64,000 nucleotides of DNA from Isoetes taiwanensis. Taxonomy: Eukaryota; Streptophyta; Lycopodiopsida; Isoetales; Isoetaceae. The notes under the pieces were generated by a model that was given only the letters and a program-made list of their open reading frames with translations, made no database searches and was not told the DNA's origin. How positions within the stretch are numbered: position 1 is the first letter of the stretch; every line of letters starts with the position of its first letter. Where the stretch lies: NCBI GenBank assembly GCA_021234155.1, contig JAJEKV010000224.1, positions 248,001-312,000 on the forward strand. The letters run 5' to 3'. The position numbers and the translations under genes were made by a program. Shown here one piece after another: positions 8,454 to 64,000 of the stretch.

Positions 8454-8722
8454 CCCACGTAGAACGAAAAGTAAGGATAGCAGGGGCAATGAGAGGAGTA
8501 GTAGGCAGCATAGGAACATCAGTAAAAAGATCATCATCTGAAAAAGGGAATTCAGCAAGTATTTCACTTTCATGTTGACTATGAGGTTTGAAGCGTAACA
8601 TAGAAAGCTCATCAAAAGTAGCATCACGACTAATGATAACTTTTCGAGAAACAGGATCCCAAAAACGATATGCTTTAGCATTAGAAGCATATCCAAGGAA
8701 AATAGCTTTCGTAGCAATAGGA

Positions 8723-9488: not shown

Positions 9489-9602
9489 GAGATATCACAA
9501 CATTAGCAAACTCATCATTCGGTTGAAGAGCATAAAAATTGCCTTGCTTAAAAGAAAATGGCAAAAACAAGACCATCTTTCACAAAACGGCAAACACGGT
9601 TA

Positions 9603-10193
9603 TCAAACCGAACAAAGGAAGCCAATATCGAGAAGACGAGCAAGAGAAAGGAAATTGTGGGAAAGGTCCGCACATGTAGAACCCCATGCAAAAGCGCACA
9701 CCGAGAAGATGTGCCAATTTGAAGAGTACCAATGCCTTTTGAAAGCAAGGGGTCTATTGTCACCAAGATAGACAAATTTCTTAGCAAGAAGAGGGCGATA
9801 TTGAGTCAACCAATGCTTGTGATGAGTCATGTGTTGAGTTGCAGCAGAATCTACAAGCATAGAGTCATTAGCTTTAATCATTTCAAGCGCATCATGGACA
9901 CACTACTACAAAAATAGGTAGAAATGGCACAAAAGTGAGCCACGGCCACGGCCGCGTCCATGCCCACGACCAGAACGACCAGCAGGCTCATCAACATAAT
10001 TATCCTGATCATCATCACGAGATCGTTTAGAACGAACAACAAGAGCTGTTTCTGTCTGATCTTTGGAAGATTTTTGAAGTTTGGTAGCTTCATCTTTCAA
10101 TGAAATATGAACACGATCTAGAGTGAGATTGGCTTTATTGAGTGGATTGTTCTTGAACTCTAGGGCATGCGAGATGAGGGACATTGTGTCCAT
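9603..10193 (-). pseudogene. Ty1-copia gag C-terminus and protease
   Basis: The 10193-9906 frame has a gag tail with a basic, glycine-arginine-rich stretch (GRSGRGHGRGRGRG), which often replaces or precedes the zinc knuckle in copia gag. The 9881-9603 frame has the aspartic protease start (MLVDSAATQHMTHH), with DSA in place of the commoner DSG. The bases between the two frames are few and lack a zinc knuckle, so some sequence has been lost there. N-terminal gag is missing. A stretch at 9900-9913 (CACTACTACAAAAA) resembles the tip of CACTA transposons, but no partner end was seen. Confidence 0.75.
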
Positions 10194-10314
10194 GATGCGC
10201 TTCTCCTTTTAAAGTAAATATTCAAATCATTCACAATAGAAAGGAATCCAAAAACCAAGTCCTCTTGTCCAAGTGTTCTAATGTTAGAGCATCCTCCATA
10301 GAAATTGGATCATC

Positions 10315-11373
10315 AGTCAGATATTCTAACATCCATTGTGTCGGCTTTCATGCTCGACGTGCAATAACATCATAAGCAACCTCATGAATAATCTCATTAA
10401 GACCAAAATGATCTTCCCCATCAATATTAGCAAAATTATGAACAAAGTCAAGGACATCAAGAGCAAAGGCAGATTCAGTAATAGAAGCAGGGGCAGCGAC
10501 AGAAGCATGCTTTCATCAATAGAATGAAGCATAAGTAAATGGAAAGATGATCCCCAAATTGATATATTTTGGCATTATAGGCATATCTAATAAAATAGCT
10601 TCCTTAGCAAAATCATCATTTTTTACTCTCTTCAGGAGGAATATGAACATAAGCAGTACAACAAACCAAAATTGTATAAAATTGGCAACATTGGGTTTAA
10701 TAGCAGACCAAGCTTCTAATGAAGTTTTGCCTTTCAAAAAATAAGTAAGCAATTTTGCAAGTACACAGCAGCGCCAACAACTTCTGCATAGAAACACATC
10801 CAAATTAATATGAATAAGCATGCAATGCACCACATTCACGATGGTGCAATTCTTCCTCTCAGCAATACCATTCTGTTGAGGAGAATAAGACGCAATGTAT
10901 TCAAGAACAATGCTTGAATTTGCACAAACTTGGTCAAGTACCAAGGACTTAAACTTGCCACCATTATCAGTTCACAGTCTCTGAATCATTGTTCTAGTTT
11001 GAACTCCTATCATCTTTTTGGAAGTACAAAAGACTAATAATTCTTCAAGTTTTTTTTAGTAATAAAGTACATAAATGTATAGCCAAAGAGAATGAGTGGC
11101 AATGTGGCTTACCAATAACATATGCCTCACAAGCATTCAATACTCCACAAGGTGATCACAGCTCATGTCCAAAAGAGCTTGAAAGCTAGCATGACCAAAA
11201 CGTCGATGCCACAAAGTACTGATATCATCACCATGAGATATCACAACATTAGCAAACCCATCATTCATCTTGAGTTTATAAAGATTGCCTTTGATGAAAA
11301 ACTGTGAAAGGTCTTCATATTTGGCGACCATATCTTAAAAGAGGTTTCCATGTATTTTCAAAGAGCCATAAAG
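10315..11373 (-). pseudogene. Ty1-copia integrase fragment B
   Basis: Minus-strand pieces related to, but diverged from, the 8.7-9.5 kb copy. The 11331-11137 frame has ISTLWHRRFGHASFQALLDM. The 10944-10516 frame has YSPQQNGIAERKNCT and KTSLEAW. Frames are broken and part of the integrase core is deleted near 11090. The region is a direct repeat of 12591-13750, so the two pieces derive from one sequence that now flanks the right arm of the inverted repeat. Confidence 0.75.
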
Positions 11374-12589
11374 TAGCAGCATCACCACCACATAGTGTTA
11401 GACCAAATTTTGCACGAGGTCATACAAAGGGAAACTTATCTAGATGCCAAACAACAACATGACAAGCTTTGACACAAAAAGTATGTTGGCTTGTTAAATT
11501 CAATAAGAAAACCTATAGCATTGAGGCAAGAAATAGAATGGGGCAAGCGCATTGAAATTCAACACTAAAACCAATATCCAATACATGCAAAATGTCATGC
11601 CTCCTCAACAATCATCCTTAATCAACATTCATGAAAGTGTTAGCTTCAAGCACATTATACATATCTCTTACCAGGTGGACCTCATGATGAATTTCAAGAA
11701 AATTTTTATGCTGTGTAGCAAACTTCCTGTAATAACATTCATCTTCCAAAGTCAATCTTCAAGAAAATTTTCCAATTAGAGATATTCAATCAGTCAATCT
11801 CCAAAGAGATTTTGCAATTTCAGTAAGCCAATCTCCAATGAGATTTTGCAATGTCAGTAAGTCAAATCTTTAATGAGATGTTCAATTAGATACTGGCCAA
11901 TTTTCAATCAAGCTCCAAGGAGATTGCTTTGCCAAATTTCTAGTTTGCAATTATATATTTGTCAATTTTCAATAACATATCTTCTAGTTTGCATCTCTAA
12001 TGAGATTTTCATTACACACTAGCAAATCGTAGAATTAGATCTATAACAAGATAGTAGCATGACAAGACATATGCCAAAATATGATATTCGTCATCACCAT
12101 ATGCGATTAGAGCATCAAATACATCATTCAATTTCAACCCCCATACATTATGTATATATCCGGCAAGTGCCAAAAAGCCACATCCATTGTAAAGAAATTA
12201 ATCGACACCTCAGATTATTGAATACAAAACCAATAAACATAATACCTGTCGTTCTTTACCATAACTTGTTCATGCTAGCCGTTCAACAGTGTAGCTAGCA
12301 GATAAATCCAACTGCTAAAATTCCTAAGCATATGGTCACTGTAATAATCAAAATTTGCACACCTTCATGCTATCATACTTAACTTGCATACGTAAGTTCC
12401 ATCATTTAAAACTTCCATGCTTAACTTACATGATTCAAGACTTCCATGCTTAACTTCCATGATTCAAGACTTTCATGCTTAAACTTTCATGATTCAAGAC
12501 TTCCATGCTTAACTTTCATGATTCAAGACTTTCATGCTTAATTTAAGAGGTATTTAACATCCCTGGGATATGGCTAAAGGCAATGCATA
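11374..12589 (-). repeat. Large inverted repeat, right arm (1.2 kb)
   Basis: Reverse complement of 6347-7549. The short frame of 75 codons at 11552-11779 is nearly identical to the minus-strand frame at 7376-7149, which shows the high similarity of the arms. The 29 bp repeats reappear at about 12400-12545 in the opposite sense. It is flanked on both sides by direct copies of copia integrase fragment B. Confidence 0.85.
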
Positions 12590-12590
12590 G

Positions 12591-13750
12591 TCAGATATTC
12601 TAACATCCATCGTGTTGACTTTCATGCTCGACGTGCAATAACATCATCATAAGGAACCTCATGAATAATCTCATTAAGACCAAAATGATCTTCCCCATCA
12701 ATATTAGCAAAATTATGAACAAAGTCAAGGACATCAAGAGCAAAGGCAGATTCAGTAATAGAAGCAGGGGCAGCGACAGAAGCATGATTTTATGAATAGA
12801 ATGAAGCATAAGTAAATGGAAAGCTGATCCCCAAATTGATATATTTTGGCATTATAGGCATATCTAACAAAATAGATTCCTTAGCAAAATCATCATTTTT
12901 TACTCTCTTCAGGAGGAATATGAACATAAGCATACAGCAAACCAAAATCGTACAAAATTGGCAACATTGGGTTTAATAGCAGATCAAGCTTCTAATGAAG
13001 TTTTGCCTTTCAAAAAATAAGTAAGCAATTTTGCAAGTACACAGCAGCGCCAACAACTTCTGCATAGAAACACATCCAAATTAATATGATTAAGCATGCA
13101 ATGCACCACATTCACGATGGTGCAATTCTTCCTCTCAGCAATACCATCCTGTTGAGGAGAATAAGACGCAATGTATTCAAGAACAATGCTTGAATTTGCA
13201 CAAACTTTATCAAATACCAAGGACTTAAACTTGCCACCATTATCAGTTCACAGTCTCTGAATCATTGTTCTAGTTTGAACTCCTATCATCTTTTTGGAAG
13301 TACAAAAGACTGATAATACTTCAAGTTTTTTAGTAATAAAGTACATAAATGTATAGCCAAAGAGAATCACAGAATCATAGAACGGCCCACAAAGTTTAGA
13401 ACGGACCAGTTCTAAGACTCGCGTAGCACGATATCTTTCCCCAGAGAATGAGTGGCAATGTGGCTTACCAATAACATATGCCTCACAAGCATTCAATACT
13501 CCACAAGGTTATCACTACTCATGTCCAAAAGAGCTTGAAAGCTAGCATGACCAAAATGTCAATGCCACAAAGTACTGATATCATCACCATGAGATATCAC
13601 ACCATTAGCAAACCCATCATTCATCTTGAGTTTATAAAGATTGCCTTTGATGACAAACTGTGAAAGGTCTTCATATTTTATTTGGCGACCATATCTTAAA
13701 AGAGGTTTCCATGTATTTTCAAAGAGCCATAAAGAACTAGCATCACCACC
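12591..13750 (-). pseudogene. Ty1-copia integrase fragment B' (duplicate)
   Basis: Near-identical direct repeat of 10315-11373, beginning with the same TCAGATATTCTAACATCCAT phrase. It keeps about 90 bp of integrase near 13360-13450 that the first copy lacks (CEAYVIGKPHCHSFSGE and following residues). Frames are broken. It ends where the second primer-binding site and leader begin on the plus strand. Confidence 0.75.
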
Positions 13751-13753
13751 ACA

Positions 13754-14147
13754 TGGTATCAGAGCCAAATTCGTTGTACAGTCTATAAGCATTAGTTTTA
13801 TGTTTGATGCAAAAGCAAAAGTAGAAAGTCGCAGCTATGGAGTAAAAAGATAGCCTTGCTTTGGAAGGCCATAATTTTTCTAATATAGATCAGATTCATG
13901 CGATCTAAAGCTTGCTGGAAAGAACTTAAAGTCTAGTTTAAGTGAGAACAAAAATCAGCCAAAAAGGATAATTATTTTTTGGGTTATCGCAATGTTAGTG
14001 ACTAACCTTGTTTTAACACAACAGGAGAAAAAGCAAGGATGGAGAGTGGTATTCATATTGGATAGTCAATTCTTCGTTATTTGTTGAAGATAAAAAGTAG
14101 TATTACTTGTTGATGATTAACTATATCCTTTTAATGCATCTGTGAAT
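13754..14147 (+). repeat. tRNA-Met primer-binding site and copia leader, copy 2
   Basis: TGGTATCAGAGCC lies at 13754-13766 and is followed by about 385 bp nearly identical to 5743-6124. No LTR precedes it: the upstream sequence is copia integrase in the opposite sense. It is therefore a recombination junction and not a normal element start. Confidence 0.8.
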
Positions 14148-15910
14148 CTTTATGCTCTTCAACTGAATGATGAGTTTGCTAATGTTGTGATATCTCGTGG
14201 TGATGATATCAGTACTTTGTGGCATCGACGCTTTGGTCATGCTAACTTTCAAGCTCTTTTGGACATGAGCTGTGATGAACTTGTGGATGGACTCAATTTG
14301 TCAACCCATGGTGTATTGAGTGTTTGTGAGGCTTGTGCTCTTGATAAGCAGCATCGCCATCCATTCTCTGGAGATGGACATCCTATCTCGCATTTCTTAG
14401 AACTTGTACATTCTGATCTTTGTGGCCCATTTTGTGTTTCCATAGATAAAGCCCTATACTTTCTTCTTTTCATTGATGATTATACTCGCTATACCTTTGT
14501 GTACTTTCTTTCCAAAAAAATCTGATGTCCTATCCATCTTTTGTACCTTTAAGAAATTGGTTGAGGTTCAAACTGGAACCATGATTCAAAGATTAGCGAC
14601 CGATAATGGTGGTGAGTTTAAATCTTTGGCTTTTGACAAAGTTTGTGCAGAATCGGATATTTTTCATGAATATACCGTGCCTTATTCTCCCCCAACAGAA
14701 TAGTGTTCTTTGAAAGGAAGAATCGCACAATCATGAATGTTGTGCGCGTTGTATGCTTATTCATTTCGGTTTGATAAGTGTTTTGGGGGTGGAAGTTGCA
14801 TTGCTGGCTGTGTATGTGCAAAATCGCTTGATTACTTCTCGCTTTGAAAGGCAAAACTCCGCTTTTGAAGCTGGTTTGGTCGTAAACCCAATGTTGCTAA
14901 CGGCGTGTTTTTGGTTGTACCGCTTATGTTCATATTCCAACCGAAAAAAGAAAAAAGATTGATCCCATTTGTTACTTTCAAAAGCTATTTTCCTTGATAT
15001 GCTTCTAATGCTAAAGCATATCGTTTTTGGGATCCCATTTCTCGAAAAGTTATCATTAGTCGTGATGCTAGTTTTGATGAGCTTTCTATGTTACGCTTCA
15101 AACCTCATAATCAACATGAAAGTGAAATACTTGCTGAATTTCCTTTTTCAGATGATGATCTTTTTACTGATGTTCCTATGCTGCCTACTACTCCTCTCAT
15201 TGCCCCTGCTATCCTTGATGCACATAATCCGATTGCTGAAGCTCTTGATGTTCCTGAACTTGCTTATGATTTTGCTAATGATGGTGATTATGATGAGGAA
15301 GATCATGATGGTCTTGATGAAGTTATTCATGAGGGTGCTCATGATGATGAAGTTATTCATGAGGTTCCTCATGATGATGCTATTGTTGCACGTCGAGCTT
15401 GGAAGCCGACGCAACGGATCTTAGATTATTATTCTGCTTTGGCTATGACTGCTGATCCAATTTCTGTTGCTGATGCTCTCAGTTCAGATCAAGCAGAATC
15501 ATGGAAAATGGCTATGGAGGCTGAATATGAGTCCTTGATCAATAAAGGTACATGGGAACTTGTGGAATTACCTGCAGCACGAAAGCCCATTCAATGTAAG
15601 TGGATTTTTAAGACCAAGGTTAAAGCTGATGGTTCTTTTGATAAATTCAAAGCTCGCCTTGTTGTCAAAGGTTTCTCACAAGTTGAAGGTGTAGATTATG
15701 AGGAAACCTTTTCTCCGGTTACGCGCCTTACAAGTTTGCGAAAGTGTTGTTAGCCTTTGCAAAGGCAAAGATGATCTTCGTGATACATCAAATGGATGTA
15801 AAGACAACCTTCTTGAATGGTGATTTGAGTGAAGAGATTTACATGGTACAACCTGCTGGATTTGTTGTGTCTGGACAAGAACACTTGGTGTGTAGATTGA
15901 GATGCTTGGC
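14148..15910 (+). pseudogene. Ty1-copia integrase and RT N-terminus, copy C
   Basis: Plus-strand relative of the minus-strand copy at 7.5-9.5 kb. It has the GAG-pre-integrase block (LWHRRFGHANFQALLDMS), the integrase core (LVHSDLCGPF; NGGEFKSLAF after a frameshift at 14515), a damaged NGVAERK region at 14695, and a linker with Asp/Glu/His-rich repeats at 15230-15390. RT follows, with WKMAMEAEYESLINKGTWEL, CKWIFKTK and [20 protein letters not shown]. After a frameshift at 15745 come [20 protein letters not shown] and [19 protein letters not shown]. Sequence then leaves copia at about 15905. Gag, protease and the catalytic YVDD part are absent. The retained RT N-terminus is the part missing from the minus-strand copy. 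Confidence 0.85.
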
Positions 15911-34219: not shown

Positions 34220-36599
34220 CTACGCCATGACAGACTGCATGTCAATTGTCCTTCCATGAAATTCATCAGGCTCAGTCCAATAGTCTTCAGCCCTTTCTTT
34301 CCAAATGTCTTTTGATTCAATGCCCTTCTTGCCAACAGTCATCAACTTATGTGCACGCCTCTTATCCCAAGAGCACTCATGTATCTCTTCTATGCTACAA
34401 GAAAGGCATGTATCATCATCATCAGAATAAGGATTTTGGTTGTCTTCCAAGTGATATCCACCCAAAAATGCATGATTAGGTATCTGCAAAACATGTACAT
34501 CCTCAAGGATATCAACATGTACATCATGTACATTTTTTTTTAACATGTTCCACATGTTCTTCATGATCCACATGTTTGGCAACATGTGCATTGCATGCAC
34601 TAGATATTCCTGCCACATTGTTGGCAGATTTATCCAAACACTTGTACCTCCCCTTGATTTTGACAACCCTAGCATTAGCCTTAATTTTGGCCAGCAATTG
34701 TGCATTATTTAATTCCCTTGCTTCACCAAAAAACTCAATGACATTATATTTACATTTCCCTATCCCATCTCCTTGGAATAATGAAGCTTGAATCCTTGCA
34801 CTAGTTTTTTCATATTCAATGTCAGTTGTTTTTGAGCAGTCTTGGCAGCATTGGCAATTGCCCTTTGAAGTGCATCTAACTCCTTTGCCCTCTTCCTATA
34901 TACAATCATTTTCTTTCTCTCCTCTATTTTTTCTTGTCTTACTTTTAGCAGCCTCTTTGTTCAATCTGTCCTGCTCTATTCTAGCAACCAACATCTGATC
35001 TGAAGTGACAAACAACCAATCTTGAAGTGCATCCAGCAACTTAGATCTCTTAGCTTTTGGTAGCCCACTAGCAAAAACATTTTGCACACGATTTTGCACA
35101 CCTGCAACAACATTTTGCACTTGTGCAGGGGCAGCATTAGGAACAAGCATACTCCTGACTTGTTCTTTATTAGGGGCAGCATTTGGAATATCCACAACAT
35201 GTTCTTGAGGAGGCATATGTGCAATTTCTGCTGCAACAACCACGCCATCATGAACCATCATATTTTCAGCCAACGTTTGCAGAATTTGAGTAGCAGCATC
35301 ATCATTGTTACCAAGATCTTCTAATTCATCTTCAGAGTCAGCCATGACTACATTATCAACATAAGGGGAAGTATAGCCTTGTCATTGAAGGGCCATATTC
35401 CTGTTTTTGCAAAACCTGCAACAATGTTAGGCCTCGTCAATGTAGCCTTGTCATTGAAGGGCCATATTCTTGTTTTTGCAAAACCTGCAACAATGTTAGG
35501 CCTTGTTTTGATGGCTCACCAACCTTACCTTTATGCATGTATCTACCTCTCAACTTCTTGAATGCTGTTTTGAATGGGCTGAAGCATGCCACATCAAGTG
35601 GTTGAAGCCTATGGCTTGTAATATGTGGAGGAAGAAGCAACATATGCAAGCCTATTTGCCTCGCATGCTGAATTGCACTCAAAGTAACATGAGAACCATG
35701 GCCATCACAAACAAGCAGGTGTGGTCGATCAACACTTATACCACTAGGAACATTAATCTTGTAAGTGCTCTAACCAAGCATCAAACAAGGCATTTGTTAT
35801 TCAGACTTTCTTTTGGAATGACATTGCTGCACTTGGCTCACATCCAGCCATCAAATCTCTATATTTAAGTTTTATTCCGTTAAATACATAGAAACTAGGC
35901 ATCCTAAAGCCAGATGCACTCACACAACTTAAGATAGTTAGCCATTCTCTATTTTTGGAATGGTCAGATTGGCATTTCTAATTCCTTTCCTTATCAATAT
36001 CTTCATTCCAGAGCTATGGCCAGCCCGAATTCCAGTTTCATCACAGTTCGAAATGGTAGATGCATCCAAATGGAAGTCATTGTACGAGGCTTTGAGAGTG
36101 GAAAAAAATTCATCCAGGTTAGTAGAATTCATAGCTTTTACTCTTTGCACTTCCACACACTCAACAGACCTTAAAGCAAGTCAGGGTATCTACTTTTGAA
36201 TCCTCTCCACCACTTCTTATCGGGTAGGCCATCTTTAAAACTAGTCCCAAATTTCTCTTCAGTTTGGCCATTCAACCACCTTCTAAGAGTGGTCAGAGGT
36301 ACGCCATAATGTAAAGAAGCCTTCCTAATGCTAAGAATACCATCATCAATAGCATCTATGGCCTGATTTAGCTTTTCCATAGTCCATGAACCTCTCTCCA
36401 TAAATCTGACACGTTTGCCTCCCAAAGAAGTATTTTCTGGCTGGGTGTGGATAATGGGGCCTTTGGAAATACATCTGGCTCTTGGAAGAGGAGGAGGTGC
36501 TGATGGTGCAACAGAGCAGATGGTTCTCCCTCTTAACTGCATTGCATATAACAAATAAGAGTAGCAAGCAATGAAGTTGTAATCACAAAACAGATTCAA
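34220..36599 (-). pseudogene. pogo/Tigger-type DDE transposase
   Basis: Read from right to left. The 36599-36171 frame has a psq-type helix-turn-helix (WTMEKLNQAIDAIDD, SIRKASLHYGVPLTTLRRW) and the start of a CENP-B-like DNA-binding domain (KKWWRGFKSRYPDLL). The 36156-35938 frame has SNCDETGI with the first catalytic Asp (36040-36042). The 35710-35437 region has CDGHGSH (Asp at 35704-35706), LLLPPHITSHRLQPLDVACF (third Asp at 35593-35595) and KTAFKKLRGRYMHKG. This D-D-D arrangement defines the CENP-B/pogo DDE family, which cuts and pastes DNA. The 35345-34896 frame is acidic, then coiled-coil-like and basic, and 34705-34220 has CLSCSIEEIHECSWDKR. These fit the C-terminal tail of plant members. 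Stops between frames and a 69 bp duplication show decay. Terminal inverted repeats were not located. Confidence 0.8.
35374..35511 (-). repeat. In-frame 69 bp tandem duplication in the transposase
   Basis: Two copies of a 69 bp unit starting TAGCCTTGTCATTGAAGGGC lie at about 35374-35442 and 35443-35511. They differ by a few bases. The length equals 23 codons, and both copies encode GLTLLQVLQKQEYGPSMTRL on the minus strand. Confidence 0.85.
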
Positions 36600-37100
36600 C
36601 CAAGAGAAGAAATGATGAATCGATCCAATCTAGAGAAGAAATAACAATGATTGATCTCAGCTTAACACTACCTTTAAATATCTTGCACATTGAAAAGGTG
36701 GGAAGGAAAATTATTGAAATCTAGTAATTTGGATGGCCAGATTCATACCCAACTAGTGATCCCCTCCAAGGCGCTAAAAAGAATGGATAATATGCAGACA
36801 GGTATGCAATCTGCACGGAAATGCAATGGAGGGAACATTAGAATCATTACAAAATGGAGGGAATAAAGGTTGTGAGTTGTTACCTTGGCACCATGGGAAG
36901 CTCTAGTTGTTTAACTGAAAACCATTTGAGAAGTTTTTTCTTCTGATCTATGAGATATTGGCACCATAGAAATTGCCTAAATCTAAAGTCCAGAGGTAGA
37001 TGCGTGCATGCATCAACATGCAAAAGTGAAAAAGAAATTTTGGACACATGATTGCGAATCTGTGGATTAAGATTTGCGCCAGCTGGGTCCTTCCTTGAAC
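36600..37100. other. Gene-free region
   Basis: No coding domain or RNA found between the transposase and the P450 upstream region. Confidence 0.4.
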
Positions 37101-37163: not shown

Positions 37164-37430
37164 CGTCGAGGACATATGACGCACCCGCAGATATACAGAA
37201 TGGAGCTAAAACTAAACTAATCCTAAACCATAGACATGAACCAAAAAGTCCATCATGGTGAACAAAAAGAAAAGGCCATACACGCCAGGGAGAAACTTAT
37301 GGATAAAGCCAAAAGCCATGAAAATGGCATTTCCATTCAAAAGTGAACTTGTGGGGCCGAAATTCTTTGGCCATCTAAACTTCAATAAGAACACCTCATG
37401 CATCTAGGTTCTCATATTTCATAGCAAAGG

Positions 37431-38945
37431 ATGGAGTCTTGGTTGCCAGCAGTTGTTTCAGTAATTCTCGTCTTCTCTATCTTTTTGTACTGGGTTCCCA
37501 AACCAAGCAAGGCCGGTAAGCATCTTCCTTCTCCTCTTGCTCTTCCCATAATTGGCCATCTTCATTTGCTAGGGCATCTCCCTCACCAATCCCTCTTTCA
37601 TCTCTCAAAGCGCTATGGACCCCTCTTCTCTCTTCGCCTTGGGGCAATCGATTGTTTGGTGGCTTCTTCACCAGAGATGGCCATGGAATTCTTAAAGACA
37701 CATGATGTTGCCTTTGCTTCAAGGCCAAAAATTACATTTGCGCGACTAGTGATGCATGATGAGGATATGATATGGGCAGAATATGGACCTAGATGGAAGG
37801 AGTTCAAAAAAGTGTGCACTCTAGGGTTGTTCAGCCATACAAGGTTAGAAGAAACCAAGCATATAAGGCAAGAAGAAATCTCAGCCACTATTGAATCCAT
37901 GGTAGAGGAAAGCAAAGGAAACAGGGCAATTAAGGTGTATGAAAAGCTGTCTAATATGGAGATGAATATAGTGACGAGGATGGCGATGGGCAAGACATAT
38001 TTTGGGAAGGAGAACTCAGAGGGTGCAGATTGGATCAGGGCTGTGATTGAGGAAGTGGTCACCTTAGTAACAGTGTTCAACGTGGGAGATTTTGTGCCGA
38101 TTCTAGCAAAATTCGATCTGCAAGGATATGAGCGAAGGATGAAGGCAGTGAGGAAGGAATTGGACGCCTTTCTTGAGCGAATAATCCAAGAGCACAAGCA
38201 ACAGAGCAGAAAGAACACTGATCTTATGGACCTGCTCATATCAGGGGACTTTAGCCACGAAGCCATCAAGGCTTTTGTAATTGTAAGAATCTAATTCATC
38301 TGAATTAATTGTTTTTTCCTTATAGGGTCGATTTTGCAGGATATCGTAGCAGCAGGGACTGATACTGCAGCAGTAACAACGGAATGGGCTCTGGCAGAGA
38401 TTCTACGGTCTCCTACAGTAATGCAAAAAGCCCAAAATGAAATTGACCAAGTGGTCGGATTAAGCCGTAGAGTAGAAGAGGAAGATTTGCCGGAATTGAA
38501 ATATTTGCAGGCAATTGTGAAGGAGGCGTTTCGGCTGCATCCAGCAAGTCCTATGCTGCTGCCTCACGAATCAATGGAGGAGAGCAATGTGGGCGGCTAC
38601 CAAATTCCGAAAGGGACTCGAGTATTCGTGAATATATGGGCAATTGGGAGAGATCCAAGCATATGGGATGAGCCAGAGGCATTCAACCCAGATAGATTTA
38701 TGGGCAGCAGCGTCGATGTAAGGGGCCGGGATTTTGAACTGATTCCATTTGGATCTGGAAGACGGATGTGCCCTGGCTATACGTTGGCGCTGTGCATGGT
38801 GCAGCTCGCTTTGGCCCGCCTGCTGCAGAGCTTGGATTGGATTGTGCCGGAAGGGCAGATGCTTGACATGACAGAAACTTTCAAAGGCACTGTGAGATTG
38901 GCTCATCCCTTACAGCCCATCGCCACGTCTCGCCGAAATATCTGA
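37431..38945 (+). CDS. Cytochrome P450, CYP71 clan, two exons
   Basis: A haem monooxygenase of about 485 residues, probably bound to the ER. Exon 1 is 37431-38282 and exon 2 is 38340-38945. A 57 bp phase-0 intron, with GTAAG at 38283 and TTGCAG ending at 38339, joins KAFVI to DIVAAGTDT. The start has a membrane anchor (residues about 5-22, AVVSVILVFSIFLYWV) and the proline-rich hinge KHLPSPLALPIIGHLHLLG. Key motifs: I-helix AGTDT (289-293), ExxR in KEAFR (346-349), FNPDRF (399-404) and the haem loop FGSGRRMCPG (421-430, Cys 428). All are intact, with no stop, so the gene is probably functional. The short intron sits at the position usual for A-type P450s. Substrate and exact family cannot be told; phenylpropanoid, flavonoid or terpenoid oxidation are all possible. 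An AATAAA lies at 39177-39182. No TATA box was clear. Confidence 0.88.
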
Positions 38946-54243: not shown

Positions 54244-54650
54244 AAATCAACAGGTAGGTTGAGAGCAATGGTAACATAGCCGTCAAGTTTGGTCTGAGCC
54301 TCATCAGCAGACTGAATAGCTTGCTGTAGCTGTTGTTCGAGGTCACGGATCCGGTGCTCCTTTTTCTTGAAGGCGTGGCCAGTCCGGTCGGACCCGTTCG
54401 AAGTCGTGGCATGTGAGGAGGATTGCCCAGGAACATTGAGTCGAAGCAAGGCAATCTCGGCGTCAAGAATTTTCTATTTCTGAACCTCCGTAAGCTGATC
54501 TTGGAGAGATGTGAGCTGAGAGGTCTGCGTGGAAAGCTGAGCTGTCAAAGAGGCAATTTGAGTGTCACGCGCTGTAAGGTCTTGGGCTTGAGTGTTGTAA
54601 TTCCGAGAGTTCTCAGATCTGGCGTCCAAATTTTGGCAATGTCTTTATCC
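54213..54650 (-). pseudogene. Coiled-coil protein remnant
   Basis: On the minus strand, a frame from about 54610 reads NYNTQAQDLTARDTQIASLT, AQLSTQTSQLTSLQDQLTEV, QK and then a TAG. It resumes with ILDAEIALLRLNVPGQSSSH. The 54449-54213 frame then has KKKEHRIRDLEQQLQQAIQS and ADEAQTKLDGY. Leu, Ile and Val recur every 3-4 residues, a coiled-coil pattern, with about 7-residue repeats of QLxS type. I do not recognise the protein; gag-like or structural TE proteins often carry such regions. It starts right where the copia E 3' LTR is cut. Confidence 0.55.
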
Positions 54651-54679
54651 TTTGTGGCGTTCCAAAGATAATATCGCTA

Positions 54680-56243
54680 TCACGTATATATATCGTTATC
54701 GTCATTAACGCATACGTCACAAGTGACATGTACTTGAGAGTAGGACAACGTTGCACCTAGGAGCTAAAGGTTGCACCTAGGGGGCAACCTTGGATGTTGG
54801 GTATGTAATTAAACATACACAACAAAAGGTTCCTTGTTCATCCATTTCCAAATGGCTTAAAGCCATTTGCCCATGTGGATGCCCTAACCTAGATAGGGTC
54901 TATATAAGGGCTAAAACCCTAGACCCTAGCTCTCCTTTCACTTTGCCAATTAGGGTTTTCTAGAGCCTCCTTTCCTCTTTCGCAATTAGGGCTTTCCCGG
55001 GCCAATTCGCCAAGGTAAGGCTCGAAATCGCATTGCGAGCTCGAAAAGTCGGATTTGCACAACAAAGTTCTTGAGTAGCAATTTGTCTTCGCAAGATCGA
55101 GCATGGACGCCTTCCGGAGGATCAGGAGCAAGCCAAGGAGCAGGTATCTAGTTGTTCTGTTGTGCAAAACCGTCTTTAGGCATGGCAATATGCCGGTTTA
55201 GTATGTTGGATCATCTCTGGAAGCCTTGTAGATCCCTAGATCTGAGACTCTAACGAATGAACCTAACATTGGATGTTAAGTAGATAGATTGATATGATTC
55301 TCTATCTCTGTTCTGTGATATTGCATGTATTCCACTCTGTGATCTCCTTGTTGTGGGAAGGGGGGTAGAGACCTAAAGGCTGTGTAGAAGATGCTCCTAG
55401 CATAGCACCTTAGTTCCCACATAAATGCGGCCCGTGCACAGGAGCCCACCTGGCTGTGGGTGAAGGGGCAAGGCCGGTTGATAAGGAGAAACTTGTCTCA
55501 TCGCGGACTTACCCCTCTGGTAGTAAAGCCTATCGGGGTCTTTGGCCGGGCTAGGCTTAATGGCTTGTCCGCTGCGTGTGGGCAAGGCATGAGCTCGACA
55601 CTCGTGGGGTGGTGGACATGACCTTCCAGTGAGTTCAAGTCGAATAAGGGCAGTGGCCCTCTAGCCGCCTGCGATGAGCATGGATACCTCTAGAGGAGAG
55701 GCAGCTCTCTTCCTGCCTCATCGGGGTTGGGGAGATGCAACCCAGCAGTAGTAGCCCCTCTGGCTATTCATCCGTGAGCTACGGCCAAGTCCCAACACTT
55801 TTCAGCCTACTTTGCAAAGTGTGCTTGGGGGGGGCGGATGGAGTGGACTACCCTAAGCCATGTTCTATGCCAGCCAAATCCATTGCCATGAATTGCATGC
55901 GCAATGAACTCGGAGGCCTAGCCGGTCATCCCCTTGAGTCCAGAGCCCCGGTAGGATCTTTCATTTGTATTATTGTTATGAAGGTATTGTCGACTCTGTG
56001 ATGTTGCTATGGTTATGGTGATTGTGTTGTATATTATTAGTTGTGCTCATGTTTGTTTGTTACGCTTCAAGCAGATAGGTCGATCCGATGGAAAGGCGGA
56101 TGAATGACACATCCACTCTTCCCTTGCGGCTCTCCCCCCATGGGAGTAGAGGGTGGATGGCCCCTGTCGAGGCATTTGCCGGGGGAATGCTCCTCCTGGA
56201 GAATACGATCGGGCATCATTATAAGGAGTAGGGGATGTCACAG
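54680..56243 (+). promoter_or_regulatory. Long LTR-like promoter region of element F
   Basis: The region ends 1 bp before a tRNA-Met primer site with GGGGATGTCACAG, a common Ty3-gypsy LTR end. A TATA box TATATAAGG is at 54901-54909. It is followed by telobox-like AAACCCTAG (54914-54922), TTAGGGTTTT (54950-54959) and a TTAGGGCTTT at about 54988. The rest, to 56240, has mixed composition without coding domains. The left end could not be fixed, so the LTR length (about 1.5 kb) is approximate and no 3' partner was found. Confidence 0.5.
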
Positions 56244-56256
56244 TGGTATCAGAGCA
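56244..56256 (+). promoter_or_regulatory. tRNA-Met primer-binding site, element F
   Basis: TGGTATCAGAGCA, directly after GATGTCACAG. It marks the start of the leader that holds the two hairpin modules. Confidence 0.75.
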
Positions 56257-56455
56257 TGATCTTGGCATCCAAGATCGAGCACTGGCCATTTTTTTCCTTA
56301 GGACTAACAGTAGATTCGAGTCTTGGGGTATAGCCACCCAAGCAAGAGCTCGAACAATTGGGAAAATTTCCAATTTTTGGGTAGATTTTAACTCCATGAT
56401 AGGTTGCTAGTGAAGTGTAGCATCTTTCCCAACCTAAATTGCCAAAAAAAATAGG

Positions 56456-56528
56456 CCACCCCTCACAGAGTGCGCCCAGCACCATTCGGTTCGCAAACCG
56501 ATTCCGCCCAGGCGCACTGTGTGAGTGG
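56456..56528 (+). repeat. Nested hairpin module 1 in element F leader
   Basis: Outer stem CTCACAGAGTGCGCC (56462-56476) pairs with GGCGCACTGTGTGAG (56511-56525) in 14 of 15 positions, extended by CCAC/GTGG at the outside. An inner stem TCGGTT/AACCGA (56486-56491 and 56496-56501) closes a CGCA loop. Same layout as module 2. Confidence 0.85.
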
Positions 56529-56669
56529 TTGACCTCCGTTGACATAGTTAGGTGTCCCAATTAATTAAGATAATGGTGTAGTTTGGCTTATTCCCTTAGT
56601 TCTAGATAGGTTTGTATGTTATAACACTAAGAAACTCCCTGTAAATTGTAAAATAGCCTCGAAAACAGT

Positions 56670-56742
56670 CGACCCCTCACAGAGTGCACCCAGACCCTTT
56701 CGGTTGGAATCCAATCTGGCCCAGGCGCACTGTGTGAGTGGT
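56670..56742 (+). repeat. Nested hairpin module 2 in element F leader
   Basis: Outer arms CTCACAGAGTGCACC (56676-56690) and GGCGCACTGTGTGAG (56724-56738). The inner stem is GGTTGG/CCAATC (56702-56707 and 56711-56716) around AAT, with one G-U pair. It lies 214 bp after module 1. The inner sequence differs from module 1 but still pairs. Confidence 0.85.
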
Positions 56743-56795
56743 GGGTGTTTTGAAGTATGGTGAACCCAAATGAATGCCTCGTACCTTCGCTAATG

Positions 56796-56952
56796 CCACG
56801 ATTCTATTGCAATAGCAATAGAATCGACATTCCTTGGATGGGGACGCCCTATCTTGCTCTCCTATTTATACCGCCTTCTTCCTCATTTCCAGCCATCGGC
56901 GTTCTCTTGAGCTCCTTTCTATTCTGCTCATTTTTGGCTCCACAAGTTTCCA
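56796..56952 (+). repeat. Direct repeat with promoter-like content, copy 1
   Basis: About 155 bp nearly identical to 62350-62506. It includes the inverted pair GATTCTATTGC / GCAATAGAATC (56800-56810, 56815-56825, AATA loop), a TATTTATA TATA-like box and CATTTTTGGCTCCACAAGTT at the end. Confidence 0.9.
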
Positions 56953-59900
56953 TCCTTGCACTCACAACTAGAAATCAATCTTTCTGAAAGGTATGCATTT
57001 GATTGTTAGCGGTTTGGTTTATTTTTGTTTTTGGTCCGTTTGCATCCTCTCCTTGTCTTGTTCTGTTTCGGTGGCGTTGTGCTCTAGCTTACAGGATGGA
57101 ACCGTGGTTGTGGATGAGGTTAGTTTTTTCCTTATTTGATTTTCGTTTGCACGTGTTTGTGATGGAGTCGTGATTGTGGATCGAGGTTAGTTTTTTCTAT
57201 CTCCAATTTCTTTTGCAAGTAGCTATCTCTTGGTTTATGATGAGTCATGGTTTATGAATCGATACCTTGTCAGCCTTGGCTAGGTTTGGCTTCTGTTGTG
57301 GAGCTCCACTTCGGCCAGATTTCATAAATCGGTTCCAGTTTTCGGATGGGCCGGATCACAGTTCCATGCTCTCTTTGTTCAGTTTTTTTCAGATCTGCTC
57401 CTCTGCAGGTTTTGCATATGGGCTAGCCACCCAATTCCTAATTAGAACCCACTTCTGAGCCTGCCCATCTTTGCATCCAAGCCCAAAAAATCTGTTTATC
57501 TTATGGTTATGGCAGGAGCTCCTGTTGGGTCACTCCAGCAAAGGCGTCTCTTGAGTTGTGATAAAGATAGCAGATCCCGATCTGGGCGATGGTTGGCTAG
57601 ACCGGAAACTGGTTCTGCTCATCCGAGGACCAGATCGACTTTTCTTATGCTAGATGGATCCCCTTTTGGCCGATCTCTTGGCTTCTAGCTCGGTCTCAGA
57701 GGTTTCTTTTCTATCTCAGATTTTCTGATCAAATCTGTTTGGGTTCTTGACTGCCTTCTATTCCGTAGCCAGATCCTTATGTGTGCCATAGATTGGGTGG
57801 ATCGAGTCGATTATCGTGGTCGGCATCCCCCGAAGACAATTCGCCGATTCTCAAGAACCGCCCTCCGCCTCTGCCGCAGGTGGATTTTCAAGGGGATACC
57901 GGGTCATGGTTTCCCATGGCCCCTTGGCTGGGGGGATACCGGGTCCTCGCTTTCCTTTGATAATTTATTGTATTGGTTCTATAGCTTTGCTTTGCATTTT
58001 TTGTTTTTTCGCTGACATCCGCATTCCCCGGGCTGTGTGCTCCTTTGATTTTTGTCATCCTTGTTCCTACTTAATGTTGGCGGTTCTGTGGAAACTATGT
58101 TTATAATTTTGATTTCCAAATTGAGTTGCCTTAATCTTGGATAAACTACCTTGTCTATCTATTGGAAGGTTGGTGGCCAGTAAGTAGGAGTCATATAAGA
58201 CATATGCCTCGAGCGTTTAATGCTCCAAGATCAGTTCCCTGTGGACCTTCGTATGCACATGTTTCTACATAACACCAACACATCTCGTTGTTTTTTGCAA
58301 TGGTCTTACTTTGGCTTACTCTTTCTACATTTGCCTAGATTTCTTTTTGCGAGGTTCACAATTGTTTGCAGCTAGTAACGAGGTTTTTGTGTTGGGCACA
58401 CGAATCCAATTCGCCTTTTATTCGACATGTATCGCTGTTGTATCCAGGCCGAGCGAGAACCTAGCTTTGATCCCGATCCTCTGGGCAAGGCCTAGATTGG
58501 TGCACAGGGTCTGGCGGAATCCTACTTTAATATCATTGGAGTTTTTGCGTCAACATGTGAGATTGTGGCCTATTGGTAAGGTCTCTCTTTTCTAGTTTCC
58601 AGAGATGGGATCCTGGATCCCACTAGCAAGGTACGTTTTTTGCATCTTTTGTGTTTAAACATTTCCATCTATTTATTTTGCCCAGGGATATATTTGTATT
58701 TTCACGTCAAAACATGTCCAATTTTAGCATTTTTGCGTCTAAACTTTTTCATCTATTAATTTTTGCTAAAAGATGTGTTGTTTTTTGTGCCTCCTCATAT
58801 TGTTGATTTTCACATTTCACTTTCAATTTTTTAAGCTTTTGACACATGTAGAGTTCCATTTTTTCGTGATATTCTTTTGATGCATGTAAGTTCCAGTTTC
58901 TATTGTTCGGTTTAAAAAGACATGCGAAGTTCCGTTGTTTAATTTCGCTTCCTCTGCTTGTATTAGCATGTTGTTCTTGCAGGCTTGCATCCATTGGGCA
59001 TATAGTGGTTTCTATCGACTATCTAGTTTATTACTTGACTATTCCTTAGTTTTCCATCTTTTCAGTCTATGATAGTGGTATTTTGTTAACCTCTTTCTGC
59101 AGGCTATGGGTCCCCTATGATTGCTGATTTTTACGATTACGTGGTTCGTCGGTTCGTTAGGGGTGATTCTTTTCTCTCTATTCTCGTCGTCTTGTAAGTT
59201 TTTTTTTTTTTGGTATTCTCTATGCTTGCACTATTTCTTTTACCACATGTTTTCAATTACAAAATATTTTATATTTTGTATGGTCCTTGCTTCGTTATTC
59301 CAATTTTTCTCCACAGCTTCGAGACATTCTGTGCTTCTGGTACCATTGCTCGTTTTTTCCCATTTTTTCTTTCTGGTCATGGTTTTCAATTTTAATTACT
59401 TTTTTCCTTTTGTGTTGTGTGGATTCTTTGTTTTTCCGTCAAAATTCGTTATATTTTGCAGGTATGGTCCATTTTAATGGCTTTTTGCTCCTCGAATTTG
59501 TTGGCTTATTAGCCTTTTCGACTTTGCTATTTGTCCCCTTAGATTTATTTGTCCCAGTTCTCTTGTTTCTGGCCTTTGTTTCATTCCAACCTCTTTTCAA
59601 TGCTGCCACATTCTTTTTGTCCTGAATTATTCCATTTACTTCCACGACATGGCTTTGACCAAGGTTGTCAGCTGCTCTTTTTTATTCTTGACTGCCCTTT
59701 GTACCGCTTACTCCCTCATTTAGGTCTTGCTTATTCTTGGTCACCCGGTATTCAACTTCCTTCCTTTCTTCTGGTTTGTTAATTTCTTTTACACCATTTT
59801 TCTATTATTTATATGCTCAGTAACTTTATTCACGATCTCGTTTCCCATACTCCGTCGATTTTTTCTCCTTAGATTCTTCGTGTTCGGTTTATATGGTTCG

Positions 59901-62310
59901 ATGTTACATTGTCTGAGCATTAGTATTGCATCTAATTTTGTTCCTTTTTTGTCCAACTACCTTATTTCATGTTGGTTCATCTTTCGTCGCTTGTCTAGTC
60001 TCATTGATCACCTTGAACACTGCTCTGTCGTTTCATTTGGTGACTTTGTTGTTTTCATATCCTCTTGTCGTTGTGATATTCGTTGAATTTGTCTGCGATG
60101 TCCTGACTCATTGTCCCACTACTACGATGGCTTTCCTGCTCAGTTTGATATATTTCCTAGTTTTGATCCGATTCTTTTTTCTTCTTCGTCTCGAGTTGGC
60201 TCCTTTTATTTGTTTTTATATATTAACTTCCCATTGCCTCTTTTATCCACTTATTTCTTGTTTTTAGGGTTTTTACTCTGCATGTCTCATTTGTTCACTC
60301 TTGTTAATTTATTTTTTCTCTGTTTTCCACATATTTTTAGTTCCTTTCTTGTTCTTTTATAGGTTCTTGTTTGTGTTTCCTTTGTCAGTTAATCTTAGAT
60401 TCTCATTTAGTGCTTTTTAGTTCAATTTTTTGTTTGTTTTTTGTTTTACTTCAATTTTTTGTTTACTTCGCTCTTTGGATTTTAGTGTTAGTGTCTCTTT
60501 TAGTTTTTTAAGTTCATTTTTTAGGCATTTTTTCTATGTACCCCCTTTGCTCCATATATTCATCAAGATCCTTTCTAGTTCACTCTCCTTCATTTATTCT
60601 TTAACCTCTTAAATCGCCTTGGGTCCTTTCTTGATTTACCTAGTGAGAGGTCGTGATTTGTCCTTTCAATTTAGTTTAACGTCTTGAAACGACTTGGCTC
60701 ATTTGCTCCTATTTGTTTTGTCTGGCCCTATTTGTATTTGGCCTTGTGTTGGACTAACACTTTGCATTGCATATATTGTACATGTCGACTCGGATTCCAT
60801 GCCCTTATATTTTCACATGTGGTTCTACTAGTTTATCTTGTCTATTGGTTTGTTGGTTAGTTCTATTTACACATTACCTTAGGTTGTTCCGCTTTTAATG
60901 TTTTGGTTGCGATTGTTTTCATTGCTCCGCTGTGTCATTGTACCTCTTTTTGGTTATATGTTTTCCATAAGTATCAATTTTTCCTTTGTTTCCTACATGC
61001 TCCATTTGCTTAGCTATTTGGTTAGGTCACATTTGCTCTATTGACAGTCCTATTATGCCTGGTGCACGTTGTTTCATTAGTCTCCCTTTGTTGCCCCATT
61101 GGCTTTGTCGATTCTTGGTGTTGCAGAAACCTTAGATCATATTATCCCATTTGTCGCTTGTTCCTTTTCCAGTTTGCTCTGCTTGGCCATGTTGCGCCAT
61201 AGGTCTTTGTTCTCCGTTTATTGCATTGATCCCGTTCCACATGCATATCTCTTATCCTATTAGTTTGGTGTTAATAGTCTCGCATTCAATTATTCCAGTT
61301 TTAGTCCATGTTCTCACGTTGGTTCAATTTTATTCCATGGGGCCCTTTCTTGACTCATTTTCTCCTTCAGTTTCCAGTCACAGTTTTTATTTCTCTCTCT
61401 TGCTCTTTTTCTCTGAAGTTTTTGAGTCTATGTATTTCCTTCTTATTTTTTCTCTTCTATTGCCCGTAGTTATATTTGTTCTTTAGTTCGCTTTCGTCTA
61501 TTTGGACTCCATTAATCAGGGTTTACTCACTCCTTCTGTCTCATTTGCGTCTTTGGACCGTTACCTTCGCCTCATTTCTTTTCCTCTCATTATTTCCCTT
61601 GTTTTGCCTTTAGCATCGTTTTTATGATGTCGTCGCTTTCTATTTTGGAATCTCTCTTCGCATCATGTTGTTGTCTCAGGTGTGCCTTGTTATTGTCAAG
61701 TTTTTTGATCTCCATTTCTTTGATCTAGTTTGTCTTTTTAATCGTTATCGTCTCCTTGTTCTTTTCTCAGTTGTCCATTTTCTCCCTTGGGTCTGGCTTT
61801 GCGAATATGTCATTGTTCGATCTCTTCCCTTGTCTGATATTCTCTTTGACCCCGTTATCTCCTTTGTGTAGTGCCTTTTTTGCTTTTACTTTAATTGGCC
61901 TCTTCTTTCCACTTGTCGGCCTTACTTCATTCATCCCATCGACTCCTTTTGTTCCCAGTCCATTATGTTTGTGCGTATTTACCTCCTTTGCTTCTTTTAT
62001 CTTTGGGCTTACTTGCACCTTTGTATTACGCTAGTCCTCTGGGTTACATATTTCTACCTTTACTATGTCTCCTCTTGCTTCGTCTTACTTCTCTTTCTCT
62101 GTTGGCATCCATATATCATGCTTTGTGCCTCTGCGTTGATTATCGATTACTCTATCCCCCTTTGCTTCATGATTTCTTTGTTTGCCTCCTTTGCTTTGAT
62201 CTTTTCCAATCGTCTCTTACGCCAATTTTCTTCATGCGTTTCGCTTTTGGACGGTTTTCCCTTGTCATCTTGGTTTGATCTATTCTTTTTGAGGTTGATT
62301 CCTCTTCTAT
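56953..62310 (+). other. Pyrimidine-biased non-coding tract
   Basis: Over more than 5 kb the plus strand is rich in T and C with few A or G runs. All its plus-strand frames are Phe/Leu/Ser/Cys-rich by composition and match no protein family. No gag or pol motif was seen. It starts after the promoter-like repeat at 56796 and ends where that repeat recurs at 62350, so it may be the body of a large non-autonomous LTR-type element. Confidence 0.6.
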
Positions 62311-62352
62311 CGGCCAACTACTTGTTTCATAGGACCCATCCTAGGAATGCCA
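62311..62352 (+). repeat. 42 bp direct repeat, copy 1
   Basis: GGCCAACTACTTGTTTCATA and then GGACCCATCCTAGGAATGCC. The same 42 bp recur at 63392-63433. Confidence 0.9.
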
Positions 62353-62396
62353 TGATTCTATTGCAATAGCAATAGAATCGACATTCCTTGGATGGG
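62335..62396. repeat. Long near-perfect hairpin
   Basis: CCCATCCTAGGAATG (62335-62349) pairs with CATTCCTTGGATGGG (62382-62396) with one mismatch. The inner GATTCTATTGC (62354-62364) pairs perfectly with GCAATAGAATC (62369-62379) around an AATA loop. Copy 1 of the repeat at 56796 keeps only the inner stem and part of the outer one. Confidence 0.85.
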
Positions 62397-62506
62397 GACG
62401 CCCTATCTTGCTCTCCTATTTATACCGCCTTCTTCCTCATTTCCAGCCATCGGCGTTCTCTTGAGCTCCTTTCTATTCTGCTCATTTTTGGCTCCACAAG
62501 TTTCCC
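62350..62506 (+). repeat. Direct repeat with promoter-like content, copy 2
   Basis: Second copy of 56796-56952, including the CCTATTTATACCGCC box. It is joined on the left to the 42 bp repeat at 62311-62352. Confidence 0.9.
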
Positions 62507-62721
62507 GCCCCCCCTCTCCCTCTGATATATTTGAGCTTGTTTCATTTCTTCACCCTACTTCTCGTTTTCATATTTCGTTCCTTTGTTAAAGTTGCTCCCT
62601 TTCTTTTTAGTCTATGTCTGTCTAATCTTCTTTACTTCTCGAGTCACCTTGTAGCCCCTGATATCCTCCATGCCTCCTTTCTATCTTTTTTGGAAGTGCA
62701 TATGTTCTTATTTTTTCATGT

Positions 62722-63217
62722 TTCTCGATGTGGCTCTGTCGCCTCTGAGACTTTCTTATCATTTGTTCTTTCTCAACGTGGTTATGGCCTTCGAGATATG
62801 ATTTCTTGTTATTTTTTCTTGACATGGCGAGTATTTTATTTATTCATTCATGTTTTCTCTCGGTGTGGCGTTGTAGCCTCTCAGTCAATATTTTATTCAT
62901 ATTTTCTCTCGGCGTGGCGTTGTTGCCTCCGAGAATCATATTTATTGGTTTTTCTCGGCGTGGCGCTGTAGCCTCCGAGGCAGCACTAATCGGTTGTTTT
63001 TTCCCGCGATGGTCATTCCGCGGACGGTTCCCGATTAGTCGGCTGTTGTTTCTTTCTCGGCGTGGCCCTGGAGCTTCCGAGTCGTCTTGCCTATGGCATT
63101 TAACTCATTGACGGGTTATTTTTCTTTCAGCCTTGATTCTGCAGGATTGTTTCAGGTCTTATGCTTGCCATAATGCGTGGGGTCGTTCTTTCTCGGCGTG
63201 GCCCTGGAGCCTCCGAG
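62722..63217 (+). repeat. Cluster of TCTCGGCGTGGC...CTCCGAG motifs
   Basis: Seven copies of a 26-30 bp motif lie at 62722-62749, 62770-62795, 62857-62884, 62905-62933, 62952-62979, 63053-63081 and 63190-63217. The consensus is CTCGGCGTGGC, a variable centre, then GCCTCCGAG, with CTCGG/CCGAG and GGC/GCC able to pair. Related copies occur at 48.54-48.69 kb. Confidence 0.8.
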
Positions 63218-63320
63218 TCTTCTTGCCTATGGCATCTAACTCATTGACGGGTTATTTTTCTTTCAGCCTTGATTCTGTAGGATTGTTTAAGGCTTTGTGA
63301 TTGCCATAGTGCGTGGGGTC
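63053..63320 (+). repeat. Tandem duplication, unit about 135 bp
   Basis: 63053-63187 and 63188-63320 share the motif plus TCTTGCCTATGGCAT, TAACTCATTGACGGGTTATT, TTTCTTTCAGCCTTGATTCT and GTGCGTGGGGTCG-type ends. Confidence 0.85.
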
Positions 63321-63391
63321 GTGGGGTCGTGCTTCAACTATTTGCTTGGGTTTCATCAAAAACCTAAGAAGGCGTGGTTCTTCTTCCCGTT

Positions 63392-63433
63392 GGGCCAACT
63401 ACTTGTTTCATAGGACCCATCCTAGGAATGCCC
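63392..63433 (+). repeat. 42 bp direct repeat, copy 2
   Basis: Same sequence as 62311-62352. It is followed by a T run and then the promoter of the H3-tail ORF. Confidence 0.9.
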
Positions 63434-63473
63434 TAGTTTGTTTTTTTTTTTCCCCATATGAATTGCAGGTCCC

Positions 63474-63515
63474 AACCCTAAATTCCACCTCCCTATAAAT
63501 AGAAAATTAGGGTTT
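63474..63515 (+). promoter_or_regulatory. TATA box flanked by two teloboxes
   Basis: AACCCTAAA is at 63474-63482, CTATAAATAG at 63493-63502 and TTAGGGTTT at 63507-63515. The set is typical of plant promoters of highly expressed growth genes. The start codon of the next ORF is 101 bp after the TATA box, leaving room for a short leader. Confidence 0.7.
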
Positions 63516-63602
63516 CCATTTTACCCCCACCTTTCCCGGAGAACAGCTCGCCCAAGAAGACGATCTTCAGGCGCCAAAGCTCGAAACCCGACAAACAAAA
63601 GC

Positions 63603-63968
63603 ATGGCACGGACGAAACAGACTGCCCGCAAGGTTATGCCACCCGGTTATGTGAGCGCCCAGGAGCGAGCCATCCGACAGAAGGCCAGACGGAGGCAAGT
63701 GCACATCGGGGAAGAGGCGGCACCGGTTGAACCACCTAACCCTAACCCCAAGAGCGTGAACAGTGCACGGAGCACCTTGATTGGGGAGGCGACGGGGGCG
63801 AGCCGAGGAGGGAGCCGGCCGAGGGAGATCTTCGGGATAATGAGGAACCGTGAGCCGAACCAAAGAAGAAGAAGAGGGAAAGAGAAGAAGGCGAAGCCGA
63901 GGAAATCCAAGGCGAGGCCGGAAGGAAAAGGAAGAACTAAGAAAGAGGAGGGAGGAGAAGGAATGTAA
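63603..63968 (+). CDS. Histone H3-tail-mimic basic protein (121 aa)
   Basis: The protein begins MARTKQTARK, identical to the N-terminus of histone H3 through Lys9 and including the Lys4 and Lys9 modification sites and their context. From residue 11 it diverges: VMPPGYVSAQERAIRQKARR, a Pro/Asn-rich segment, and a Lys/Arg/Glu-rich C-terminal third (RRRRGKEKKAKPRKSKARPE). There is no histone fold, so it cannot be a nucleosomal H3. A correctly spaced TATA/telobox region lies upstream and the frame is open to a TAA, which suggests real expression. It could be an H3 gene start captured by a retroelement, a chimeric retrogene, or the gag-like first ORF of an element that starts here; the window ends 32 bp after the stop. 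I know no family with this architecture. Confidence 0.55.
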   Translation: MARTKQTARKVMPPGYVSAQERAIRQKARRRQVHIGEEAAPVEPPNPNPKSVNSARSTLIGEATGASRGGSRPREIFGIMRNREPNQRRRRGKEKKAKPRKSKARPEGKGRTKKEEGGEGM

Positions 63969-64000
63969 GAGGGAAGAAAGGAGGAAGCGCAAAGAGGAGC

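Follow-up and report, generated by a model that had tools for sequence, protein, structure and literature searches.

A histone H3 N-terminus at the edge of an Isoetes taiwanensis sequence marks the decayed start of a chromovirus ORF with an H3-type fold

Near the right end of the stretch of Isoetes taiwanensis DNA analysed here (64,000 nucleotides, C113:248001-312000, referred to below as the window) lies a 121-aa open reading frame (63603-63968, + strand) that starts with MARTKQTARKVMPPGY. The nine codons after Met (63606-63632, + strand) read ARTKQTARK, which is exactly the N-terminus of histone H3, as had been claimed before and as translation and a six-frame scan confirm. After MARTKQTARK the frame turns into unrelated basic sequence. 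What kind of gene would begin as a histone and then go on as something else? The original prediction saw in it an H3 tail mimic devoid of a histone fold, and regarded the match as too long for chance. The latter point holds, as MARTKQTARK is found exactly once across the six frames of the window, and its chance expectation per 64 kb is 2.3e-9 for the composition of the window and 3.5e-7 for that of the local sequence; a chance match was rejected on these values.

The window ORF alone gave no match in Pfam, and by phmmer it gave a single weak one, to Staufen homolog 2 (E=0.1). As the window ends 32 bp past the stop codon of the ORF, it gives no basis for saying that a histone fold is absent. 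An ordinary H3 gene broken by a frameshift was rejected, since inspection by eye of the three forward frames of 63603-64000 found no H3 beyond residue 9. The first coding exon of an intron-containing H3 gene (with AAG/GTTATG as the donor-like site) was dropped as well, since the copies described below read open into a histone fold.

We searched the Isoetes taiwanensis assembly (1,658,258,908 bases, 1110 contigs) with the DNA of positions 63403-64000. Of 401 first-look candidates, 40 places were scored; one is the window's own, and the other 39 all start at window position 63427. Twenty copies were fetched, including the window's own continued rightward (L009), and the stretch from leader to ORF1 is present in every one of them. 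The N-terminus recurs in these copies: MARTKQTARK is exact in 18 of the 20 close copies and broken internally in L019 and L027. When compared with L009, 12 of the 19 other copies align as one piece of 8.7-9.5 kb, and the remaining seven are split or end earlier (L021 before gag). A full-length ORF1 is kept in only three of the 20 (394, 397 and 390 aa), and in one of these, L028, the second helix is locally altered. In the window's copy, the match to intact ORF1 is spread by frameshifts over three frames, and this copy is therefore decayed and frame-broken: positions 63603-63968 hold the broken 5' part of ORF1 as aligned to the intact one, and the remainder, split over frames, lies past the window end.

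The window ORF is the decayed start of ORF1 in a Ty3/gypsy chromovirus family of about 13 kb, and the earlier suggestion that it might be encoded by a transposable element proved right, as the ORF sits in an LTR element with gag-pol. The 5' LTR (54653-56242, + strand, TG...CA) pairs with a 3' LTR past the window end (C113:321041-322632, 92.8% identity) and also matches the LTR of copy L024. Outside both LTRs stands the 5-bp target-site duplication TCCTT (left copy at 54648-54652, right copy outside the window at C113:322633-322637). Directly after the 5' LTR comes the primer binding site TGGTATCAGAGC (56244-56255, + strand), which we take to be of the tRNA-iMet type. The leader that follows (56256-56797, + strand) matches the leader of L024 up to 56797, where a nested insertion of two tandem units interrupts it (56798-63426). 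Its right edge at 63426 agrees with the start of the 39 other scored places at 63427. Its units (56798-62345 and 62352-63426) have their first 154 and last 34 bases in common, and AATGCC is found on both sides of the insertion and between the units. The nested insertion is T-rich, and each of its two units starts with a near-palindrome and a TATA-like box. The insertion as a whole measures 19,980 bp; subtraction of the nested 6,629 bp and the 6-bp AATGCC duplication leaves an element of about 13.3 kb, in which a PPT-like stretch was found besides the LTRs, primer binding site and target-site duplication. Neither an Rfam scan of 56-64 kb nor a tRNA scan over the whole window gave a match.

A TATA/telobox promoter had also been proposed ahead of the ORF. 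Of this proposal, the TATA-like sequence CTATAAATAG is present on the + strand in the remaining leader (63427-63602, + strand, as seen by comparison of copies), at 63493-63502 and 110 bp before the ATG, and may be regarded as a candidate promoter. It is exact near the same place in 15 of the 20 copies and absent as an exact string in the other five, one of which (L012) is cut at its left end. Its distance to the ORF1 ATG, measured in 13 copies, is 110 bp in 12 and 113 bp in one.

Copy L024, whose LTRs are 97.4% identical, carries in this order ORF1 (738-1928), ORF2 (about 2866-4344), gag, pol and a chromodomain. Matches over the Pfam cut-off were obtained for gag, Ty3_capsid, RT, RNase H, integrase and Chromo, and the protease and zinc knuckle fell below it; by these matches gag and pol follow the order PR-RT-RH-INT. 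ORF2 gave no Pfam match, either in L024 or in L033 (4476-5927), which belongs to a second family described below. In L059, a divergent copy with Met at residue 9 (its downstream part is L067), ORF2 and gag are present and a match to RT or integrase is absent within the 7.9 kb fetched; the full layout is therefore not found in every copy. The chromodomain lies at the C-terminal end of integrase (PF00385, E=1.2e-10; PDB chromodomains, E=3e-5). Judged by eye against the residues of HP1, it is without two aromatic cage residues and keeps the middle one, W, and it looks like type II. A passage of PMC6317226 gives the binding partner of type II chromodomains as unknown. Because the two aromatic cage residues are missing, it is doubtful that the element's integrase reads methyl-H3 directly.

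What does an unbroken ORF1 encode? A search of the genome with ORF1 scored 104 places; by hand count, 19 of them are free of stops from residue 1 to residue 395, at identities of 57-100%. The 17 ORF1s taken as intact are 385-415 aa long, with identity to L024 going down to 58%, and they are built of a free H3 N-terminus (ARTKQT), a charged spacer of about 290 residues, rich in Glu, Lys and Arg and with predicted helices, and a C-terminal H3 fold. Pfam Histone (PF00125) was found in all 17 (best E 1.9e-23), and the C-terminal part of L024 matched H3 chains among solved structures with E about 3e-20, the PDB matches listed being H3. The apparent lack of a histone fold thus arose because the copy at the edge of the window is broken. 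The intact gene is not a foldless tail mimic: its product is a complete histone of the H3 type that has a long inserted tail.

In three rows of this family (family 1), identity of the fold is 45-47% with host H3, compared with 40-44% for plant CENH3 and human CENP-A and 38-43% for yeast Cse4 and yeast H3. Fourteen family-1 folds could be aligned, and F67, R69, L90, C110, H113, K115, R116, V117, D123 and L126 are kept in all of them, R83 in 13, and T118 and R72 in 12. Other H3 positions are changed: Y41 to R, L65 to A, K79 to D and R129 to F or Y in 14/14 and R63 to P in 13/14, with R49 variable. Because several H3 positions are changed, incorporation into nucleosomes may be weak or special. 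Loop 1 has the length of that in host H3, not that of the longer CENH3 form. AlphaFold models made from 17-row and 21-row alignments had a mean pLDDT of 55.6 and 56.4, respectively, and show only an H3-like order of helices. In a midpoint-rooted tree of the fold, in which the CENH3 rows are also long, family 1 forms a long branch of its own (100/100).

Searching the genome with the Histone domain gave 8705 first-look candidates, and the 150 that were scored were all over the cut-off. The best 15 of these 150 resemble ordinary H3 genes, of which L030 and L034 were read; in the remaining 135 the open frames measure 108-494 aa. Elements of the kind described here may account for histone-like ORFs in plant genome annotations. 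A second family is represented by L029 (C101:624300-626000), in which a first ORF of 456 aa joins an unrelated N-terminal part of 300 aa to an H3 fold that is near-canonical (Pfam E 3.7e-44, 83-84% identity to two host H3s). Searching with this ORF scored 96 places. Downstream of a second-family histone ORF, on the same strand, L033 carries an ORF without a Pfam match and then protease-RT, and the second-family pol is 64% identical to that of family 1 over 303 residues. BLASTP shows no likeness between the families in the ORF1 extension or in ORF2, and the two ORF2s align weakly by hhalign of single sequences (E=0.004, Prob 8.6). The histones of the two families may go back to one capture or to two. 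Two scans of viral contigs did not confirm a relative there.

The free N-terminus is retained even as synonymous changes occur in its codons. A1, T3, K4, Q5 and T6 are invariant in the 17 intact ORF1s and R2 is present in 16 of them; 19 further loci have TKQT in 18 cases and R2 in 16. Synonymous changes occur at each of the nine N-terminal codons among the loci compared. Residue 9 behaves differently. It is K in 11, I in three and M in three of the intact ORF1s, and K in six, I in nine, M in three and T in one of the further loci, which for all 36 intact or divergent loci gives Lys in 17, Ile in 12, Met in six and Thr in one. Hence, of the two lysines said to be kept in native context, Lys4 is present in 17/17 intact ORF1s, whereas Lys9 is preserved in the window's subfamily and not family-wide. 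Ile or Met at this position was seen in the divergent copies L053, L055-L059, L068, L070-L079 and L081. The ORF1 tree places M9 within an I9/M9 clade (100/99) and has L053 (I9) branching beside the K9 group. Independent changes of residue 9 are few, so the choice of I and M is no more than suggestive.

The fold itself is under purifying selection. Among the close copies, variants shared between copies are 15 synonymous to 3 nonsynonymous in the fold (20 copies), and singletons are 21:24. In the spacer between ORF1 and ORF2, read in an arbitrary frame, the shared variants are 15:32 (19 copies) and the singletons 30:53. The fold's shared variants differ from those of this spacer (Fisher, p=0.00025) and from the fold's own singletons (p=0.011). 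The tail part of ORF1 has 35:32 shared variants (p=0.036 vs the spacer). Corresponding counts are 54:52 for ORF2, 47:52 for gag and 42:26 for RT-INT, so that ORF2 and gag bear less or no sign of constraint in shared variants, and none was seen at the integrase end with the chromodomain (9 synonymous, 13 nonsynonymous). Pairwise comparison of the 17 intact ORF1s (NG86, calculated as summed dN over summed dS for pairs whose dS was defined and > 0.05, the pairs being non-independent) gave a dN/dS of 0.07 in both the fold and the linker (65 and 102 of 136 pairs, respectively) and of 0.18 in the tail (93 pairs). At dS < 0.5 the fold, linker and tail have values of 0.10 (38 pairs), 0.11 (45) and 0.18 (43), respectively. 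The dN/dS across copies that the original prediction pointed to as a check thus speaks for purifying selection, at 0.07-0.10 for the fold.

A plausible explanation, which we hold to be probable to a fair degree, is that ORF1 encodes a retrotransposon-borne H3 variant of about 390 residues which would pair with H4 and enter chromatin. Because the residues of the H3-H3 and H3/H4 interfaces and R83 are kept, we infer that the protein would dimerise with host H4 and be placed in nucleosomes or onto the element's own nuclear DNA. The resulting chromatin would present a K4-type tail end, with the equivalents of K14 to K36 missing because the tail is replaced, and often with no K9 either. A role for the free ARTKQT end is suggested by its being kept while its codons change. 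The outcome might be that gag-pol products are tethered to chromatin, or that the element's DNA becomes hard to silence. A more specific version would have the variant enter nucleosomes on the element's DNA with an active K4-type tail free of the silencing lysines, the I9 and M9 subfamilies being natural K9I/K9M decoys that block host H3K9 methyltransferases; this version, in which the decoy part draws on work with K-to-M and K-to-I histones, we consider unlikely.

Several other readings have to be weighed against an H3 variant acting in chromatin. ORF1 might serve packaging, coating RNA or cDNA or acting as a nucleocapsid or nuclear import factor, with the fold and basic spacer binding nucleic acid outside nucleosomes. 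The spacer is indeed very basic and helix-rich, ORF1 is the first ORF past the leader, and several H3 positions are changed; but an exact free ARTKQT end is more than a basic coat would require, the interface residues and R83 are retained, and the element already has a gag, so that we give this role a rather small probability. Gene capture is common among transposable elements, and ORF1 might be a mere passenger, captured as a fragment of an H3 or CENH3 gene of the host and serving no function for the element. That 17 of the 20 close copies have no full-length ORF1 would fit such a view. Against it, ORFs are still open at 57-72% identity, the dN/dS of the fold is low, no fewer than two well-supported subfamily clades retain the histone, and an H3 fold is also kept by a second family whose pol is related, which makes a passenger very improbable.

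A tail-only mimic, i.e. a short basic bait for methyl-lysine readers or writers that lacks a fold, is what the window copy alone would suggest, and the strongly kept ARTKQT would agree with it. The window copy is frame-broken, though, and the histone fold in 17/17 intact relatives refutes the idea for the family, leaving it an extremely low probability. Finally, the edge of the window might hold a centromeric H3 gene of the host, or a pseudogene of it: as stated in passages of PMC3517398 and PMC8483392, plant CENH3s may start with ARTKQ and have unrelated tails. The LIP-x-APF stretch in the fold is CENH3-like. Nonetheless, loop 1 is of H3 length, and the sequence is an LTR element with gag-pol, dispersed over at least 40 places, which refutes a single host gene; virtually no weight is left for this reading. 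Where the captured fold came from is a separate matter, and either H3 or CENH3 may have been its source.

Retrotransposons are silenced via histone H3 marks, and chromoviruses are thought to pick their sites by those marks. An element that carries an H3 under selection beside a chromodomain would allow asking directly whether mobile elements fight or steer silencing through the nucleosome. With plant chromoviruses (the Galadriel, Tcn1, CRM, Tekay, Reina and Chlamyvir clades) the Isoetes element has in common LTRs, a primer binding site, gag, PR-RT-RH-INT and a C-terminal chromodomain; it differs in its length of about 13 kb and in having two ORFs ahead of gag, the first an H3 variant. Passages of the chromovirus surveys PMC3350952, PMC2864245 and PMC6317226 mention no histone ORF, and a figure legend in PMC2864245 states that some chromoviruses carry an additional ORF of unknown function. 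According to a passage of PMC8566536, Gypsy elements make up 10.7% of the Isoetes taiwanensis assembly, and the word "histone" is absent from the main text of that genome paper. Within the open-licence literature in PMC, searched at the level of titles and abstract openings, no published precedent for a retrotransposon-encoded histone was found.

The ORF1 protein resembles CENH3/CENP-A in its ARTK start, unrelated tail, C-terminal H3 fold and LIP-x-APF-like stretch, and differs from them in being encoded by a retrotransposon, in its spacer of about 290 residues and in its H3-length loop 1; its fold identity to host H3 is higher than that to these proteins by a small difference. Histones encoded by viruses are known, namely bracovirus H4 and the histones of giant viruses. 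There, too, a core histone is carried by a selfish genome, whereas here the carrier is an LTR retrotransposon and the histone an H3 with its native N-terminal end. H3K9M and H3K9I are dominant-negative histones that act as methyltransferase traps, and part of the ORF1 family has the same Met or Ile at residue 9. These I9/M9 forms could be natural counterparts of the known dominant-negative histones; unlike them, they are natural and encoded by a transposable element, their residues 10-11 are not Ser-Thr, and any inhibition by them is putative.

Elsewhere in the window, pieces of a pogo-like transposase lie at 35437-36629 (- strand; DDE_1 and HTH_psq by Pfam). A cytochrome P450 gene follows at 37425-38945 (+ strand), apparently in two exons, the first recognised by Pfam p450 and the second by eye. 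Pieces of a Copia-like pol, recognised by eye, are found at 6347-15216 within large inverted repeats, which reach 447 nt at 99% complementarity.
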